This document shows, one piece after another, positions 13,483-51,355 of a DNA stretch of 53,744 nt (positions are counted from its first letter, which is position 1; every line of letters begins with the position of its first letter). Origin of the DNA: Spirochaetales bacterium Spiro_12. Its GTDB lineage: Bacteria; Spirochaetota; Spirochaetia; Treponematales; Rectinemataceae. Below the pieces are notes generated by a model that searched no databases, was not told the origin of the DNA, and worked only from the letters and a program-made list of their open reading frames with translations. The translations under genes were made by a program, and so were the position numbers. The stretch covers positions 1 to 53,744 of the forward strand of contig LVBN01000101.1 of the NCBI GenBank assembly GCA_001603165.1. Direction: 5' to 3'.

Positions 13483-14157
13483 ATGCCCCGACCCGTAATA
13501 GGGCGCAGGCTTGGCGCCGCGCCCAGGCCACGGTTCATAAAGCCCTCGGGAATACCGGCGAGAGGATTGGAGGAGATAGTTTTGGGCTTCGACGAAGCCG
13601 AGGCGCTTCGCCTGGCGGATTTGAATGGTTTGTATCAGGAAGCCGCCGCCCGCTCCATGGGGGTTTCCAGACAAACCTTCGGGAGAATCGTCGAGATCGC
13701 CCGGCGGAAGGTCGCCGATGCCATCCTCAACGGCAAGGCCCTTCGGATAGAGGGCGGCGAGGTTAATCTGACGGATCAAGGAGAAAGAAGTATGAAAATT
13801 GCAGTACCCTCCCGGAATGGTTTGGTCGACGAGCATTTCGGCCATTGCCAGGAGTTTTTGATCTTCAGGGTGGAAAGGGACAAGCTCGTGGAAGAGCAGG
13901 CCGTGCCTTCGCCCTCGGACTGCGGATGCAAATCGGGGATCGCGGCGGTACTCGCCCGATCGGGGGTCACTCACCTGGTCGGGGGACATATGGGCGAAGG
14001 GGCGTTCAGGGTTCTGCAGGCCCAGGGGATCAAGGTAATCCGCGGCGCTTCGGGGTCCGCGAGGGCCGCCGCGGAGGCCCTGGTCGCTGGACAGGTTTCC
14101 GACAGCGGCGAAGGCTGCGCGGGTCACGGCGAAGCGGGCCACGGCTGCGCGCATTGA
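13483..14157 (+). CDS. DUF134 DNA-binding domain fused to a NifX/NafY-type cofactor-binding domain
   Basis: The 224-residue protein has two parts. Residues about 1-95 match DUF134, a small helix-turn-helix family (LYQEAAARSMGVSRQTFGRI is the predicted helix-turn-helix). Residues about 104-205 match the dinitrogenase iron-molybdenum cofactor domain of NifX, NafY and the NifB C-terminus (MKIAVPS, VDEHFGHCQEF). The tail carries Cys212, His215, His220, Cys222 and His224, a likely metal site. The gene starts four bases after mrp ends. A strong ribosome-binding site, AAGGAG (13778-13783), sits eight bases before an internal ATG at 13792, so the NifX domain may also be made alone. The role is probably metal-cluster carriage or sensing; no nitrogenase gene is present here. 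Confidence 0.85.
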   Translation: MPRPVIGRRLGAAPRPRFIKPSGIPARGLEEIVLGFDEAEALRLADLNGLYQEAAARSMGVSRQTFGRIVEIARRKVADAILNGKALRIEGGEVNLTDQGERSMKIAVPSRNGLVDEHFGHCQEFLIFRVERDKLVEEQAVPSPSDCGCKSGIAAVLARSGVTHLVGGHMGEGAFRVLQAQGIKVIRGASGSARAAAEALVAGQVSDSGEGCAGHGEAGHGCAH

Positions 14158-46024: not shown

Positions 46025-46645
46025 ATGGACTTTTCCGGGTATCTGCGCTGGTATTTCCGATCCACCCTGGGGGCGGCCAACCTGCTGGTGGCCGGCCTCG
46101 GCTTCGCCGGCGGATTGCTGCTGGGATTGTCCTTGCCGGGAGCGGCGGCCGCCGCGGCGGGCTTGGGTTTTGTCGTGGGGGCCGGAGCCCTGGTCGGCGG
46201 TTTCGGGGCCCGGGCGGCGGCCGCCGCCCGCCAGGCCCAGGCCGACAAGGTCAATGCCGAGCGCATCGCTTCCACCAGGGCCCTGCGCGATAAGCTCGCT
46301 CGCCTGCGCCTTAGCCCAGGCCCCGTCGCCGATGCCCGCCAGCTGGTTCTTCTTTCCTCCGGCGAGTATTTGGAAGCCTGCGCGAGAGAAAAGAGGCACG
46401 ATCCTTTGGCTGCCGAAGCCTTGAGCGAAGCCATCGAGTTGCTGGATATCCATCTCAAGGAAAAGGACGAGGCCGCCACGGAGCGCCGCTTCGGTCTCAA
46501 AGATGCCGATCCCTTCGCGGAGGGCGAGTCCAGGATTGTCGCCGCCCTCACGGAGAAGGCGGCCGTCCTGCGGGAGCGCAGGATTCAAATCGACGGGGGG
46601 CTCGCGGCCGCCGGCCTCATGGCGGTCAAGGAGGATTTGCGATGA
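46025..46645 (+). CDS. Two-helix membrane protein of unknown function
   Basis: The 206-residue protein has two adjacent hydrophobic segments (about residues 17-40 and 42-63, Gly/Ala-rich) and then a soluble, probably helical, domain rich in Ala, Arg, Leu and Glu (about 64-206). I do not recognise the family. AAGGGGGGGCC immediately before the ATG serves as ribosome-binding site. Its TGA overlaps the ATG of the cysteine-tailed protein (ATGA), so the two are made together. It may be a membrane partner or scaffold for that protein. Confidence 0.75.
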   Translation: MDFSGYLRWYFRSTLGAANLLVAGLGFAGGLLLGLSLPGAAAAAAGLGFVVGAGALVGGFGARAAAAARQAQADKVNAERIASTRALRDKLARLRLSPGPVADARQLVLLSSGEYLEACAREKRHDPLAAEALSEAIELLDIHLKEKDEAATERRFGLKDADPFAEGESRIVAALTEKAAVLRERRIQIDGGLAAAGLMAVKEDLR

Positions 46646-48303
46646 AGCGATATGCCAGAATGGGCTTTGCGATTTGTATCCTTCTTTTCGCCGTCCTGGG
46701 CGCCTGGGCTTTGGACGCCTTTCTCGACTCGACGGACATCACCGTCGTTCTGCGGGCCGACGGCAAGGCCGATATCTACTACAGCCTGGAGTGGAGTGCC
46801 TCGGGCGGACAGATGCATGGCTTTTATTTCCAGGGCGAAGCCTTCAATCCGGTGTGGAATCCCCAGGGCTGTTTCGCCGAGATCAACGGCGGCAAGCGCG
46901 TTCCCCTGTCCATCCGGGACCTGGGCTTTGGCAAGTACGACATCGTGCTGGCCAATGGGGAGGGTTTTTCCGGCAGGGCCTTTTACCATCTCAATTACGC
47001 CGGGGATTTTGCGGCCGCGGGCCTCATAGGCTCCACCACGAGTTCCGAGCTGGGCGAGCTGGTGTATTTCGACTGGGCGCCCGTTGAATGGGACCAGCGC
47101 CTGCAGTCCAGAACGCTGCGTCTGGTGCTGCCCGTGACGGTGGGCGGCGGGACGCTCACGGCCACCGAGCGCGAAGCCGTTCCGCTGAAAACCGAAACCT
47201 GGGTGAACGAAGAGAACAAGATGGATTTCTACGGCTCCCCCGGCTCGGACGGGGCTTTTTATCTCACGTTGCGGTTTTTTCAGCAGAATCCCGGGGCCGG
47301 CGCGTCGCAGCGGATCGCCCTCTACTTCCCCGCCGGGTATCTGCCCCTCACCGCGGCCTTGTCCCGGAACGGCGGGCCTGGGGCCGCCGGTTTCGACGGC
47401 ACTGACAGCCCCGACGATTCCGAAAATGATTTTTGGCTCACCACGCCCCTGGCCTTGGCCATCGGGGCTGTTCTCATAGCGCTGGCCATGGCTTTGTATT
47501 ACGCGAACCTGCGCCGATACGGAGCCCGGGCCGCCTTGGTCAGGCAAATCGCCTGGGCTGGGGATTCCTGGCTGCCGCCCAAGCTTTTCGCCGGAAGCTA
47601 CCAAGTTCCGGGCAAGATAGCGAAGGATCTGCATCCCGCCGAGGTCGCCCTGCTTTTCGAGCTGCCCCTCGCCAGGGTCGTGGCGCTCATGGTCGAGGGA
47701 TTGCAGGCCAAGGGTATGGTCAATTTGCTCGGGGAAGAGCCCTTGCGGATTTCCATAACCAGCGCCAAGCCCGGCGAGGGCTTGGAGGAGGCCTTCCTGG
47801 CCTGCTTCGACTCGGAAGGCAGAGCCTTGTCCGGGCTGCTTACCGATTTCTTCGAAGGCCTCATCAAAGATTTACAGGAAAAACTCTGGGATTGCGACAT
47901 GGAGGCTACCAAGACCTACTACCGCCAGTTGCTTTCGGAGGCTGAGCGAATGGAGGCCGAGGCCGACATCCGGGATGAGGAAGCCGAAGCCCGGAGGGCG
48001 AGCTGGCGAGCCGCCCATCCCCACTGGCTGTACTGGCACTCCTATTGCTACCTCCACGCCCAGCCGGTTCGGTATGGGCGAATGGGCCTCCATGAGGCTT
48101 TTTCCGCCAACTATGGGGAGTTCATGCGCTCCGCATCCTGCTTTTCTGGCTGTTTCAGCCCGACTGGCGGGGCCGCGGGTACCTGCGTCTCGGCCTGTCA
48201 CAACGCTTGTCACGATGCCTGCCATTCGGCGTGCCACTCGGCCTGTCATTCGGCTTGCCATTCCGCCTGTCATTCGGCCTGCGTTTCCGGGGGCGCGCAT
48301 TGA
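46642..48303 (+). CDS. YciQ/DUF2207-like membrane protein with a CXXX cysteine-histidine tail
   Basis: The 553-residue protein has a signal-like helix (about 7-24), a beta-rich extracytoplasmic domain (25-260), a membrane helix (about 268-291) and a cytoplasmic part. The layout recalls DUF2207/YciQ-like proteins, including a PPKLFAG...LHPAEVALLFELP winged-helix-like region near 315-350. The extreme C-terminus has Cys at 515, 519, 523, 527, 531, 535, 539, 543 and 547, every fourth residue, mostly as Cys-His-Ser-Ala. Cys500 and Cys504 precede it. The next gene, overlapping its stop, encodes a radical-SAM/SPASM enzyme with a PqqD-like domain, so the tail is a candidate modification target. DUF2207 relatives usually end in Gly-rich tails; the family assignment is tentative. 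Confidence 0.78.
   Translation: MKRYARMGFAICILLFAVLGAWALDAFLDSTDITVVLRADGKADIYYSLEWSASGGQMHGFYFQGEAFNPVWNPQGCFAEINGGKRVPLSIRDLGFGKYDIVLANGEGFSGRAFYHLNYAGDFAAAGLIGSTTSSELGELVYFDWAPVEWDQRLQSRTLRLVLPVTVGGGTLTATEREAVPLKTETWVNEENKMDFYGSPGSDGAFYLTLRFFQQNPGAGASQRIALYFPAGYLPLTAALSRNGGPGAAGFDGTDSPDDSENDFWLTTPLALAIGAVLIALAMALYYANLRRYGARAALVRQIAWAGDSWLPPKLFAGSYQVPGKIAKDLHPAEVALLFELPLARVVALMVEGLQAKGMVNLLGEEPLRISITSAKPGEGLEEAFLACFDSEGRALSGLLTDFFEGLIKDLQEKLWDCDMEATKTYYRQLLSEAERMEAEADIRDEEAEARRASWRAAHPHWLYWHSYCYLHAQPVRYGRMGLHEAFSANYGEFMRSASCFSGCFSPTGGAAGTCVSACHNACHDACHSACHSACHSACHSACHSACVSGGAH
48184..48282 (+). repeat. 12-base tandem coding repeat (CXXX array)
   Basis: Eight full 12-base units plus a final cysteine codon encode Cys-X-X-Ala, seven of the units as Cys-His-X-Ala. 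Units differ by synonymous codons: Cys is TGT or TGC, His is CAC or CAT, Ser is TCG or TCC, Ala is GCT, GCC or GCG. No two neighbouring units are identical. The protein pattern is therefore kept while the DNA has diverged. Confidence 0.9.
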
Positions 48304-49865
48304 AACTGCCCTGGGCTTTTAAGCCAAGTCGAAGGAAGGGTTGCGACCTGTCCTGGGTGCCGGATTTCTGGAAATCCCTGAGGCCCTATCTGATCGCCAG
48401 GCAGGAGGACGAGGTGCTCATTATTCCGCCCAACCTGGTGTACAAAACCAACAGGACAGGCCTGGCCTTGCTGGATGCCCTGGACAAGGGGCTGAGACTG
48501 GAACGCCTGCCCGGGATGGACGAGACGAAACTCAGGGATGTGGAACGTTTTTTTCTGGACATCAAGGCGCTGTGCGAGGGCAGGGAAGCCCCCACCGAAA
48601 AAATCGCTTACGATTTCAACTTCAGCCGCCTGCCCATCCTGGGCGAAATAGCCCTGACCTATCGTTGCAATAACGCCTGCCGGTTCTGCTACGCGGGCTG
48701 CGGTTCCGCCGGTTCCTGCGGCCTGAACCACGCCATTTCCGGCTCCTGCGGCTCCGCCGCCGGCCCGGAAGGCTCGACTGGCCGCCCCGCCTCTGCCGGC
48801 CTTCCCGGGACGACGGACTCCGCTATGGGCAAGGACTCAGGCGAAAAAGAAATGTCCACCCAGGAAGTGGAGCGGATCATCGACGTATTCGCATTCAAGG
48901 CCAAGATTCCCTTTTTCTCCTTCACCGGTGGAGAGCCTCTTTTGCGCGAAGACCTGGAGCATTTGATCGAGCATGCGCTCCGTCGGCGCCTGCGGGTGAA
49001 CCTGATCAGCAACGGCACCCTCATAAGCCCGGAACGCGCCAGGGCTTTGCGCCGCGCCGGCCTTACCACGGCCCAGATAAGCCTGGAGAGCCCCGGGGAG
49101 GAAATGCACGACAGGCTCTGCGGAGCCCGGGGCGCTTACAAGAGAACGCTGGCCGGCATCAAGGCGCTCCAGGAGGCGGGGATAAGGGTCCAGACCAATT
49201 CCACCCTTACGGCGCTGAACAGGGAAAGCCTTTTCGCCATGCCCGCCTTTCTGGCCTCCATAGCCGTGGAGCGCTTTTCCATGAACCTCTACATTCCGGC
49301 GGCGAGAATCGATACGGCTGCCGAGCTCCTGGTGCCGTATTCGCAGGTCGGCGCCTTCGTGGACTCCATGCGGAAGGCGGCCGCCGCTGCGGGCAGAATC
49401 TTCTACTGGTACTCGCCCACGCCGCTGTGCATCTATAATCCCATAGCCAGGGGCCTGGGCAATAAAAGCTGCGCCGCCGCCGACGGACTCATCCATGTGA
49501 ATCCTTCGGGCGATGTCCTGCCCTGTTCCTCCTACGCCGGGGCTTTGGGCAATCTTCTTGTCCAGGACTTCGAGGATGTATGGTTTTCCGCCCGGGCCGG
49601 GCATTTCAAGCAAAAACGCTACGCCCCCGAGGCTTGCCGGGCCTGCGCTTCCTTTACCGCCTGCCAGGCCGCCTGTCCCCTATACTGGAACTATGCGGGC
49701 TATGGGGAACTGGAACGCTCGGGTTGGGCCGGCGCCGCCCCGGGTCGGCGCGGCACATGCTCCGCCGGGGCCGGTACCGGCCGGGGCGAAGCCGGCGCGG
49801 CTTGTGCGGCGACGACTGGGGTGGAAACCGGGCCGGAGGGCGTCGAAAGCCCATGCGAGGTGTGA
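48300..49865 (+). CDS. Radical-SAM/SPASM maturase with N-terminal PqqD-like domain
   Basis: The 521-residue protein has a PqqD-like peptide-recognition module (about 20-75: LIARQEDEVLIIPPN, NRTGLALLDAL). The radical-SAM core has Cys123, Cys127 and Cys130 (CNNACRFC) and FTGGEPLL at 208-215. The SPASM domain has Cys391, 409, 446, 449, 455 and 459, for auxiliary clusters. A Gly/Ser/Ala-rich insertion spans about 135-184, and the C-terminus (about 476-521) is low-complexity with four cysteines. No ATG lies before the PqqD region; I chose TTG at 48300, which overlaps the upstream TGA as TTGA. The arrangement is typical of RiPP or peptide-modifying enzymes. The likely target is the adjacent cysteine tail. 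Confidence 0.85.
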   Translation: MKLPWAFKPSRRKGCDLSWVPDFWKSLRPYLIARQEDEVLIIPPNLVYKTNRTGLALLDALDKGLRLERLPGMDETKLRDVERFFLDIKALCEGREAPTEKIAYDFNFSRLPILGEIALTYRCNNACRFCYAGCGSAGSCGLNHAISGSCGSAAGPEGSTGRPASAGLPGTTDSAMGKDSGEKEMSTQEVERIIDVFAFKAKIPFFSFTGGEPLLREDLEHLIEHALRRRLRVNLISNGTLISPERARALRRAGLTTAQISLESPGEEMHDRLCGARGAYKRTLAGIKALQEAGIRVQTNSTLTALNRESLFAMPAFLASIAVERFSMNLYIPAARIDTAAELLVPYSQVGAFVDSMRKAAAAAGRIFYWYSPTPLCIYNPIARGLGNKSCAAADGLIHVNPSGDVLPCSSYAGALGNLLVQDFEDVWFSARAGHFKQKRYAPEACRACASFTACQAACPLYWNYAGYGELERSGWAGAAPGRRGTCSAGAGTGRGEAGAACAATTGVETGPEGVESPCEV

Positions 49866-49866
49866 G

Positions 49867-50754
49867 ATGGACTATGAATTCAAGCGCTTTTCGTTGAACG
49901 CCGGGCCGAGGATCATGCTCGGCGCGGGACTGTACGCCGCCGGGCTCCTTCTCCAGTTTCTCCTGCCCTGGGGCCTGATTCCCGGCTTTCTCCTTATCCT
50001 TTCAGGATGGGTACCCCTGGGGTTGAAGCCGATCAGCAACAAGCCTTCGGACAAGGGCCTCGAGGAATGGAGGCCCGTCTCCATGGGTGAGGTGGACCGC
50101 CTCGCCGATACCCTTCGTCAGTCCAGGAAACTCGCGACCTCCGCGGCCCTGGGGACAGTGGGCAGAATTCTTTTTCCCATCGCCACGGCATTCGTGTTAT
50201 TCGTATTGGCTTTTCTCCAACCTTTCACCGCCATCCTCGCGGCCGACGCTGCCCTGTTTCTCGTGCCGGCTATGTATTTCGGAAGGATCAGGGCCTTCGT
50301 CCCCAAGCTCCTCTCTCTCAAAATGCCTTGTTTCCAAGCTGTTTTGACCCGGCCCCCCCCCAAGGGCATGGTCCTCACCCCCTATCTGCGCTTCGACAAG
50401 GACGCAGAGGGCCTGGATGTGCCCGAGGACATAAGGCTTTTGTTGGAGCCCTCCCGGAAGGACGACGATTTTATCGGGGTGCAGTTCCAGGCCGCGGTAA
50501 ACAAGGGGCCCGGCGGCGAGGTTCCCTATATGTACGCGGTTTTTCTCACCAAAGGAAGGGGAAGTTCCTATTCGAAGCTGAAAAGCGTCAAAGCCGGAGG
50601 CTACGAAGCGGAGGCGGGAGGCGAGGGGGATTACGGCAGCATAGTGCTCAGGCAGAAAACTTCGGGTACGGGCTACGCCACGAAACCCTCGGACTGCGCG
50701 AATCTTTGGGACCTGGTCCTGGAGATCCTGCATACCAGGCTTTCCCTCCCCTGA
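49867..50754 (+). CDS. Membrane protein of unknown function in the radical-SAM operon
   Basis: The 295-residue protein has two membrane helices at about residues 18-55 and two at about 100-145, then a soluble C-terminal domain (about 150-295) with a DGT-like pattern of beta strands and no motif I recognise. AGG six bases before the ATG at 49867 and a one-base gap after the radical-SAM stop show coupling. A longer frame from 49513 is a shadow. It might help export, anchor or use the modified membrane protein; this is inference from position only. Confidence 0.75.
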   Translation: MDYEFKRFSLNAGPRIMLGAGLYAAGLLLQFLLPWGLIPGFLLILSGWVPLGLKPISNKPSDKGLEEWRPVSMGEVDRLADTLRQSRKLATSAALGTVGRILFPIATAFVLFVLAFLQPFTAILAADAALFLVPAMYFGRIRAFVPKLLSLKMPCFQAVLTRPPPKGMVLTPYLRFDKDAEGLDVPEDIRLLLEPSRKDDDFIGVQFQAAVNKGPGGEVPYMYAVFLTKGRGSSYSKLKSVKAGGYEAEAGGEGDYGSIVLRQKTSGTGYATKPSDCANLWDLVLEILHTRLSLP

Positions 50755-50821: not shown

Positions 50822-51355
50822 ATGGACTATGAATCGCAGGGCTACAATGAAGTACCTATAGGGCGGGCCTACTCGTTGCAGAACGCCGGAGGCTTGGTGT
50901 TCGTCTGCACCAAGGGCGCCGATGGCCGTTACGACCTGGCCCCCGTGGCTTGGTGTTGTCCCCTGGACTACGATCCGGTGTCCATGTTCATAGCAGTCCT
51001 GGATACCAGTCACAAGACCTGGGCCGACATCCTCGCCGGCGGCGTTTTCGCCCTGGCCTTTCCCGGCTCGGATCAAAAGGAGTTGGTCGAGCGTTGCGGC
51101 TCGGTGTCGGGCTTCTCGGTGGATAAATACGAATCCTTTTCGATCCCCTCCATGCCGGGCGAAGCGCTGGACTTAAGGATTCCCGAAGGGGTGGCGGGCT
51201 GGGTCGAGTGTTCGCTTGTCAAGACGATCGTCCAGGGCACATCGGGGGTGGTTTTCGGCAAGGCACTCGCGGCGAGGGCCCGGGAGGAATGGTGGAAAGA
51301 GCGCCTGCACTACGTGGGCGATTCCGTTTATTTCAAGCCGGGCGACAGAGTCTAG
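50822..51355 (+). CDS. Flavin reductase-like FMN-binding protein
   Basis: The 177-residue protein has the FMN-binding split-barrel layout of flavin-reductase-like proteins: NAGGLVFVCTKG, YDLAPVAWCCPLDYDPVSMFIAVLD, TWADILAGGVFALAFPGSDQ and a late ECSLVKTIVQG...VFGKALAA strand pair. AAGGAG seven bases before the ATG is strong. Such proteins reduce or bind FMN and can supply electrons. It lies 67 bases after the membrane protein, so it may share the transcript; it could provide reductant to the radical-SAM enzyme, or be unrelated. Its stop faces the convergent GH13 gene across 82 bases. Confidence 0.85.
   Translation: MDYESQGYNEVPIGRAYSLQNAGGLVFVCTKGADGRYDLAPVAWCCPLDYDPVSMFIAVLDTSHKTWADILAGGVFALAFPGSDQKELVERCGSVSGFSVDKYESFSIPSMPGEALDLRIPEGVAGWVECSLVKTIVQGTSGVVFGKALAARAREEWWKERLHYVGDSVYFKPGDRV

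Follow-up and report, generated by a model that had tools for sequence, protein, structure and literature searches.

What does a radical-SAM/SPASM enzyme do when its gene starts on the stop codon of a membrane protein ending in nine cysteines, one at every fourth residue? The pair lies in the window analysed here, a whole stretch of 53,744 nucleotides from Spirochaetales bacterium Spiro_12 (contig LVBN01000101.1), for which a first-pass annotation had proposed that the enzyme acts on the cytoplasmic tail of the membrane protein and not on a free precursor peptide. The features concerned are as follows.

46025..46645, forward strand: g1, 206-aa protein whose N-terminus holds two hydrophobic segments ahead of a soluble part
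46642..48303, forward strand: g2, 553-aa membrane protein with a C-terminal Cys tail; distant DUF2207 relative
48139..48153, forward strand: C500-x3-C504 pair, inside the conserved FMxSxxCxxGC segment directly before the tail
48184..48282, forward strand: CHxA tail of g2, nine Cys (515–547) at spacing 4; likely modification target
48300..49865, forward strand: g3, 521-aa radical SAM/SPASM enzyme with an N-terminal PqqD-like (RRE-like) region
49867..50754, forward strand: g4, 295-aa membrane protein after the enzyme
50822..51355, forward strand: flavin reductase-like gene (Pfam and neighbourhood), outside the conserved core

The four genes stand in a coupled row, as first annotated. The overlap of g1 with g2 is 4 nt, as is that of g3, which has a TTG start, with the stop of g2; g4 is taken from 49867, although a longer, 413-aa frame from 49513 is also in the ORF list. 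The earlier description of g1 as a two-helix protein agrees with the two hydrophobic segments computed at its N-terminus. This gene comes first in the operon in families f1, f2 and f4 and was not found in the f29 and f39 stretches; the f42 contig begins within g2 and hence allows no reading. g4 is kept in f1, f2, f4, f29 and f42, and f39 has in its place a 421-aa-type protein (6/6 stretches) and a 178-aa-type protein (5/6 as listed). The flavin reductase-like gene, a possible supplier of reductant, is adjacent or within ~1.2 kb in the window and in five of the 40 other loci, all f1 (L033, L034, L045, L068 and L071).

The tail of g2 is a CHxA repeat with cysteines at 515, 519, 523, 527, 531, 535, 539, 543 and 547, and two further cysteines lie at 500 and 504. 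The exact four-residue spacing claimed for the nine was confirmed by reading their positions, and neither of two sets of 20,000 shuffles reached nine: the longest run at spacing 4 was four when the whole of g2 was shuffled and seven when only its last 60 residues were. Nine cysteines are found in 36 of 37 tails and eight in the remaining one; His and Ala are invariant in each repeat, the third position varies (S/N/D/Q), and the terminal VSG is almost fixed. The tail is the best-conserved part of its protein, with a mean pairwise identity of 96% versus 20–57% elsewhere. Different codons encode 45% of the identical tail residues, a variation about as large as in the rest of the gene, and because identity stays so high despite differing codons, selection acts on the protein and not on DNA repetition.

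On which side of the membrane does this tail lie? The predicted layout of g2 is a signal-peptide-like helix (2–21), a beta-rich outer domain (25–230), one transmembrane segment (~269–292), a cytoplasmic helical domain (~303–475) and then the Cys tail. Hydropathy and charge support a cytoplasmic tail, with a clear signal in the f1/f4 type and a weak one in f39. Complete f1, f2 and f4 members are 549–587 aa long, and five f39 members 918–1023 aa. The proposed likeness to YciQ/DUF2207 is carried by relatives, with DUF2207 or DUF2207_C matches in six of 30 f1/f2/f4 members (E up to 5; best 5.4e-5) and matches to DUF2207 below Pfam cut-offs in f39 homologues, but not by window g2 itself, which has no Pfam match at E up to 1. 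TIGR04222 (cut-off 43 bits) gives no match for window g2, and in two f39 proteins it reaches 17.2 and 13.6 bits (best E 0.0031), under that cut-off. When the g2 model was used in a fold search, TMq was at most 0.27 among the best 50 matches listed; all of these, such as the ones to oligosaccharyltransferase and M1 aminopeptidase chains, are of low TM and were taken as generic.

The pairing of tail and enzyme is strict in the phylum sample. Of 392 Spirochaetota genomes, 22 are matched by a profile built on the membrane protein and the identical 22 by a separate one built on the enzyme, and among the 392 a tail-only profile gives E < 1e-10 solely in these. A search for tails lacking a radical-SAM neighbour, one of the two observations that would have told against the first-pass proposal, found none in this one phylum; in all 22 tail genomes the enzyme lies next to the tail, and all 22 enzyme genomes have the tail. 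Fisher's test for co-occurrence gives p 1.8e-36, uncorrected for relatedness and inflated by shared descent, since within the range searched the pair is limited to a single phylum. Enzyme and tail gene are direct neighbours in 37 of 40 relatives, the other three being cut by contig ends, so that all 37 readable loci agree. Tail and enzyme persist in f39, although most of the membrane-protein body differs there. No family member was found in the viral contigs searched, and no plasmid record above 60% identity, the rows listed being other SPASM proteins. A scan of a collection of genome contigs yielded two close relatives, neither of them from f4; it is uninformative on other phyla, because the f4 members it missed abound in another genome set.

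Nine of the loci with weak tail-profile matches (G059:C42 and L174–L181) were read individually and rejected as tails. The first, strong in appearance (40 bits, E 8.5e-10), consists of a 12-bp unit repeated 15 times with 97% matches; the same genome also bears a real CHxA tail. The other eight consist of strings such as LSVC, LLAC and FIAC, with a CHxA unit in none, and their Cys repeat appears in three frames in five cases and in one frame only in three.

The enzyme itself is a clear member of its superfamily. Pfam assigns g3 to Radical_SAM (E 2.8e-28) and SPASM (E 6e-9), the latter matched in all 31 enzyme-family members. The CxxxCxxC motif lies at 123/127/130 and the SPASM cysteines at 391, 409, 446, 449, 455 and 459; these three and six (GX4C-CX2CX5CX3C core) are invariant in all 38 aligned members, an alignment that leaves out one incomplete enzyme, from the f39 genome G259. 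The same 38 have no conserved cysteine after 459, that is, no seventh, trailing SPASM cysteine, for which an extra C377, conserved in 37 of them, may stand in. A PqqD-like N-terminus had been annotated: it is compatible with the predicted structure of g3 (helix, three strands, helices) and with Pfam PqqD matches in eight of 31 members (E up to 5; best 6.9e-4), but window g3 is not among the eight. In Foldseek the nearest solved folds to predicted g3 are SkfB, SuiB and CteB, at 14–20% identity over a whole-chain alignment, and SkfB is also nearest by sequence profile. These three are RRE-bearing enzymes of RRE-SAM-SPASM order.

In the 15 genomes compared, the family scores from 414 bits upwards and other radical-SAM matches at most 129.5, the one exception to this gap being a 240-bit fragment (in G002) that is itself of the family. 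Whether the enzyme falls within a clade of known, unrelated substrate receives a divided answer from a small sample. In a tree with 17 other rows, from which par_L150 and a second long row (Geobacillus) had been dropped beforehand, the family forms one side of a branch with an SH-aLRT of 92, which is not decisive; but in a fuller tree par_L150, on a very long branch (length 10), fell inside it. In G259 the tail is intact and the enzyme is in two pieces, broken or misassembled since these lie in different frames.

The reading that we prefer, with a probability of roughly 60%, is a dedicated tail-maturation system in which g3 crosslinks the cytoplasmic tail of g2 in place, probably by thioethers. 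g2 would be inserted with its outer domain outside and the CHxA tail in the cytoplasm, and the PqqD-like region of g3 would hold a segment near the tail, for which the conserved FMxSxxCxxGC of f1/f4 and the S(S/T)FSYD of f39 are candidates. The SAM radical would abstract hydrogen from one residue of the repeats; with help from the auxiliary clusters, that residue would then be joined to a cysteine sulphur, giving a series of links at about −2 Da apiece. Because His and Ala are invariant and the third position varies, either of the former is the likelier partner. Once stapled, the tail would remain part of the membrane protein and serve as a rigid metal- or redox-active element alongside g4 and, in f1/f4, g1.

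Crosslinking in place is favoured because two separate profiles find the same 22 genomes with adjacency at every readable locus, because tail identity is 0.96 with varied codons and f39 keeps tail and enzyme, and because the nearest folds are those of SkfB, SuiB and CteB, the radical-SAM and SPASM cysteines are invariant and the tail is predicted to be cytoplasmic. It is weakened by the faint sequence signal for PqqD, the missing trailing SPASM cysteine and the fragmented G259 enzyme. Pairing and topology thus speak for the target originally proposed, the cytoplasmic tail of a membrane protein; the binding, the modification and its chemistry, the retention of the tail and the tail's function we infer. 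A bolder version, to which we give somewhat less than an even chance, is a permanently stapled membrane protein: the tail of nine to about ten or more cysteines might become a multiply thioether-bridged (or otherwise crosslinked) rod, kept as a metal- or redox-sensing element by a spirochaete maturation system outside natural-product RiPPs.

Could the tail instead be left unmodified, as a Cys/His metal- or Fe-S-binding domain, with the enzyme modifying something else or taking electrons or clusters from the membrane-bound tail? Cysteine and histidine do occur in nearly every repeat, and the 178-aa protein of f39 matches zinc ribbons weakly (below cut-off, best E 0.0016). We nonetheless consider this unlikely, at perhaps one chance in five: no other shared candidate substrate was seen within the operon, the predicted fold of the enzyme is nearest to maturases of Cys peptides, and tail and enzyme are retained while other genes change. 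A giant precursor, from which the modified tail would be cleaved to give a free RiPP-like peptide, is improbable. A Cys-repeat core does follow a conserved segment, as in leader-core peptides, but a large soluble domain precedes this tail, and its VSG end and Cys number are almost fixed. Pfam found no protease or exporter domain in the operon proteins examined, in keeping with the first-pass statement that neither lies nearby, and no neighbour cluster beyond g1–g4 occurs in more than 11 of 40 loci (clusters unannotated, some loci short). Binding of haem c has very little to commend it: CHxACH can be read as CX3CH and PF01578 is matched in seven of 11 tail-bearing genomes searched, but the tail is predicted to be cytoplasmic, the other four lack PF01578 at E 1e-5 (a single marker family; one of the four, G117, is 81% complete), and haem c attachment needs no radical-SAM partner. 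Chance or DNA slippage can be dismissed for this family on the shuffles and codon variation, for although the window does contain a recognisable 12-bp tandem array and slippage arrays elsewhere yield CXXX strings, the window array has only a 77% self-match against a near-perfect protein repeat, and none of the nine weak loci carries CHxA.

How does in-place crosslinking of a membrane protein's tail compare with known systems? The substrates of SkfB, SuiB and the CteB/SCIFF maturases are short peptides. The anSME structures are also among the Foldseek matches of g3; anSME and the QHNDH maturase QhpD are SPASM enzymes acting on whole proteins, which are soluble or exported and have no repeat tail. 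YciQ/DUF2207, linked to g2 by the below-cut-off matches of its relatives, has the same layout of signal peptide, outer domain, transmembrane segment and cytoplasmic domain, but its tail is Gly-rich, unlike CHxA, and we know of no radical-SAM partner for it. TIGR04117 (Syntroph_Cxxx) shares a CXXX repeat annotated as a Cys-Xaa-Xaa-Xaa radical-SAM target; it is a 98-position model, and its matches to the tails are weak (E 0.33, 0.09 and 0.045; 11.1 to 13.8 bits, cut-off 50). A literature search of titles and abstract beginnings, with Haft and Basu 2011, the likely CXXX source, outside its scope, brought no recognisable description of a tail-enzyme system, and the excerpts of PMC5682303 and PMC7470986 hold nothing bearing on one.

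PapB makes a ranthipeptide with six Cys-X3-Asp thioethers from PapA (PMC9413430, PMC10470005). There too a SPASM radical-SAM gene lies beside a Cys-rich substrate with several four-residue-spaced units, but PapA occurs as a free peptide and offers Asp/Glu as acceptors, whereas most CHxA units lack Asp/Glu, and PapB has ten cluster cysteines including the last SPASM cysteine, of which the g3 family has no conserved counterpart. Against the NCBIfam model for PapB (NF047865, cut-off 340) two divergent members reach 88.3 and 66.1 bits, and the model is not among the best 25 families listed for window g3. The short free precursor of ranthipeptides and sactipeptides is likewise missing, the candidate substrate being a long membrane protein.

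Another near precedent is the TIGR04222 (near_uncomplex) group of membrane proteins, which Antoine et al. 2025 (PMC12452194) propose to be substrates of MNIO enzymes. They too combine a membrane protein, a Cys-bearing C-terminal low-complexity tail and an adjacent oxidative modification enzyme, but their tails are Ser/Gly-rich with interspersed Cys and predicted to be periplasmic, in contrast to a fixed CHxA repeat predicted to be cytoplasmic, and their partner is an MNIO and not a radical-SAM/SPASM enzyme (PMC12452194). An MNIO as the tail enzyme here was rejected, PF05114 being matched in none of 11 genomes at E 1e-5, with control matches in 2 of 14. The radical-SAM crosslinking enzymes compared above act on short peptides or soluble proteins. 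If the tail is crosslinked, g2 would represent a novel type of membrane protein, one that is chemically stapled, and the pairing of such an enzyme with an integral membrane protein's inner tail, conserved in five families of the phylum, would bring this chemistry into the physiology of the cell envelope. It would also open a first biochemical route to the uncharacterised DUF2207-like proteins, and the CHxA repeat would be a simple substrate on which to study iterative crosslinking. By analogy with the MNIO proposal, the Cys tails of possibly related membrane proteins may have recruited two oxidative enzymes that are themselves unrelated.

A membrane protein with a Cys-rich tail and a radical-SAM/SPASM enzyme are encoded by neighbouring genes of a four-gene operon, in which g1/g2 and g2/g3 overlap by 4 nt. 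The upstream neighbour in the window is a GPH-type sugar symporter gene. The operon and its downstream neighbour are:

46025-46645, + strand: g1, protein with two N-terminal hydrophobic segments
46642-48303, + strand: g2, membrane protein with the Cys tail
48300-49865, + strand: g3, radical-SAM/SPASM enzyme, TTG start
49867-50754, + strand: g4, membrane protein
50822-51355: flavin reductase-like gene, downstream of the operon

Elsewhere in the window, an ORF at 13483-14157 (+ strand) has a His/Cys/Gly-rich end (GCAGHGEAGHGCAH), a possible metal-binding tail.

Within its last 60 residues g2 has nine Cys, one at every fourth residue from position 515 to position 547, and two further Cys lie at 500 and 504. 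This run, the starting point of the first-pass annotation, is read directly from the sequence, and none like it arose in 20,000 shuffling trials of the whole protein or in 20,000 of its last 60 residues. Among 37 other loci with the tail, the run is of nine Cys in 36 and of eight in one (L042). The last eight Cys units have identical Cys, His and Ala in all 38 tails, window included, except for the Val that follows the last Cys in every one; the third position of this CHxA repeat is S, N, D or Q. In an alignment of 30 members the tail averages 0.96 pairwise identity, against 0.57 in the cytoplasmic domain, 0.54 in the outer domain and 0.20-0.54 in the remaining segments of g2. Identical residues use different codons in 45% of cases in the tail versus 51-62% elsewhere in g2, and the 12-bp tail repeat of the window matches itself at only 77% as DNA. 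Selection therefore holds the amino-acid repeat, not the DNA repeat.

Of 98 related genomes searched, 42 have g3 at an E-value no higher than 1e-30; families f3 and f5 contribute none. Larger stretches were examined for 40 of these, leaving out the window itself (G000) and the fragmentary G007. A tailed g2 adjoins g3 in 37 of the 40 loci, and the remaining three have g3 at the edge of a contig. Sensitive profile searches, which covered only Spirochaetota, the phylum of the window, were then made of 392 genomes across the phylum. The g2 profile (E 1e-5) and the g3 profile (E 1e-40) each match 22 genomes, and these are the same 22; that both searches covered the same 392 is presumed from the 20 negatives printed by each, which are identical. 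By coordinates, tail and enzyme are adjacent, on the same contig and the same strand, in all 22, which span 17 genera in five families (f1, f4, f29, f42 and f39). The co-occurrence of a Cys-every-fourth tail with the radical-SAM gene, set earlier as a check, thus holds within this sample of Spirochaetota. Fisher's test gives 1.8e-36, a value that ignores relatedness and is inflated by shared descent.

At E 0.01, a profile of the tail alone matches 50 of the 392 genomes. The 22 genomes named above all have E-values of 6.9e-11 or lower, and the best of the others has 8.4e-7. Eight weak loci, and one further 40-bit match in a genome that belongs to the 22, proved to be DNA repeats or unrelated strings without a CHxA unit. 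With these weak loci examined, no CHxA tail without the enzyme, no enzyme without the tail and no g2 body without the tail was found in the 392 Spirochaetota genomes at the stated thresholds. At L108:4486-4669, 15 almost identical copies of a 12-bp unit form an array whose open frame reads as CLSA repeats; it can serve as a negative control when CXXX repeats are searched for.

The body of the protein varies; the tail and the enzyme stay. In the six genomes of f39, which has a divergent type of operon, the protein before the enzyme, complete in five of them, measures 918-1023 aa in those five. Its tail consists of blocks of HSAC units with V between them, and its cytoplasmic part is related to that of g2 (e.g. 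E 8.9e-15 over profile positions 332-456). Both f39 proteins tested have DUF2207-like matches below the Pfam cut-off (DUF2207_C, E 1.8e-5; DUF2207, E 6.5e-4). After the enzyme, g4 is replaced in all six stretches (the L102-L107 operons) by a 421-aa-type protein (446 aa in L103) with weak SMC/Rad50-type matches, and five of the six, as listed, also have a 178-aa-type protein with two transmembrane segments and weak zinc-ribbon matches. The enzyme of one f39 genome (G259, L106:6192-7510) is in two pieces in different frames, and is broken or misassembled. g4 is retained in f29 and f42. g1 is present in f1, f2 and f4; the stretches from f29 and f39 showed none, and in f42 the contig begins inside g2.

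Pfam bears out the assignment of g3 as a radical-SAM/SPASM enzyme (Radical_SAM, 2.8e-28; SPASM, 6e-9), and none of the best 25 of the 75 NCBIfam families matched reaches its cut-off. The AlphaFold2 model (mean pLDDT 76, pTM 0.76) is nearest in fold to the maturases SkfB (E 2.8e-15), SuiB and CteB, and SkfB is also the best solved relative by sequence profile (1.2e-19). These three carry a PqqD-like domain. The first 100 residues of g3 are predicted to form a helix, three strands and two helices, and Pfam PqqD matches eight of the 31 members of the enzyme-family alignment, at best with 6.9e-4. Across 38 members (these 31 and seven divergent ones, without the incomplete G259), the three Cys of the radical-SAM cluster and six SPASM Cys are invariant, and 37 of the members also have C377. 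The family has no conserved counterpart of the trailing SPASM Cys reported for the maturase PapB (PMC10470005). A Gly/Ser/Cys-containing insert just past the CxxxCxxC motif (window 48702-48848) is very variable in length among relatives.

Family members in 15 genomes score at least 414 bits and other radical-SAM matches at most 129.5, except for a 240-bit match in G002, itself a fragment of the g3 family. This second, partial copy (G002:C3:7532-8008, L131; profile positions 292-446) has an in-frame TAG and is separate from the intact operon copy. In a first tree with long rows kept, one row of length 10 fell inside the g3 family; without the two long rows, a branch with support 92 separates all 38 members from 17 other rows. 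The tree does not firmly place the family among known maturases.

The first-pass annotation had put the tail in the cytoplasm, and hydropathy and charge agree. g2 has a signal-peptide-like helix and one strong transmembrane segment followed by net positive charge; a weaker hydrophobic segment (333-351) lies within a helical domain in the predicted model. In the f39 proteins one long hydrophobic stretch is counted as two transmembrane segments; there is one more such segment, and the charge bias is weak. Either arrangement is predicted to leave the tail on the cytoplasmic side, together with the enzyme. In the AlphaFold2 model the tail of g2 is helical, with a low pLDDT of about 50.

We propose that g3 would bind g2 close to the tail and, by analogy with PapB, form links within the CHxA repeats. 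The PapB substrate is a single peptide with six Cys-X3-Asp units; in each of them the enzyme links the Cys to the Asp, and 2 Da are lost per link (PMC9413430). The tails listed, in contrast, have Asp in at most two units, so an acceptor other than Asp would be needed; the invariant His and Ala are candidates. The main rival to such modification is that the tail is left unmodified and binds metal, the enzyme acting elsewhere. It is less likely that the tail is cut off as a peptide. Most likely it stays on the protein, because the number of Cys is nearly fixed, the VSG end is conserved, and neighbour clustering found no gene cluster beyond g1-g4 in more than 11 of the 40 loci. Binding of haem c by the tail is unlikely: PF01578 matches in seven of 11 tail genomes and not in the other four, although this is a single marker and one of the four is only 81% complete.

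Besides the window, five of the 40 loci have a flavin reductase-like gene near the operon. All are in f1, and the gene adjoins the operon except in L034, where it lies within about 1.2 kb. It is outside the conserved core. Since PapB can run on NADPH and FMN in vitro (PMC10470005), it may supply electrons in the f1 loci that carry one.

The NCBIfam model of CXXX-repeat radical-SAM targets, TIGR04117, scores g2 and two relatives at 11-14 bits, short of its cut-off of 50. No MNIO, an oxidative enzyme of another kind, was found in 11 tail-bearing genomes, and no description of the tail-enzyme system was found in the open literature searched. That tail and enzyme form a new protein-maturation system is a real possibility. 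Cys-tailed membrane proteins have already been put forward in print as substrates of an oxidative modifying enzyme, namely TIGR04222 proteins as proposed MNIO substrates (Antoine et al. 2025, PMC12452194); the tails described there are predicted to be periplasmic, whereas that of g2 is predicted to be cytoplasmic.
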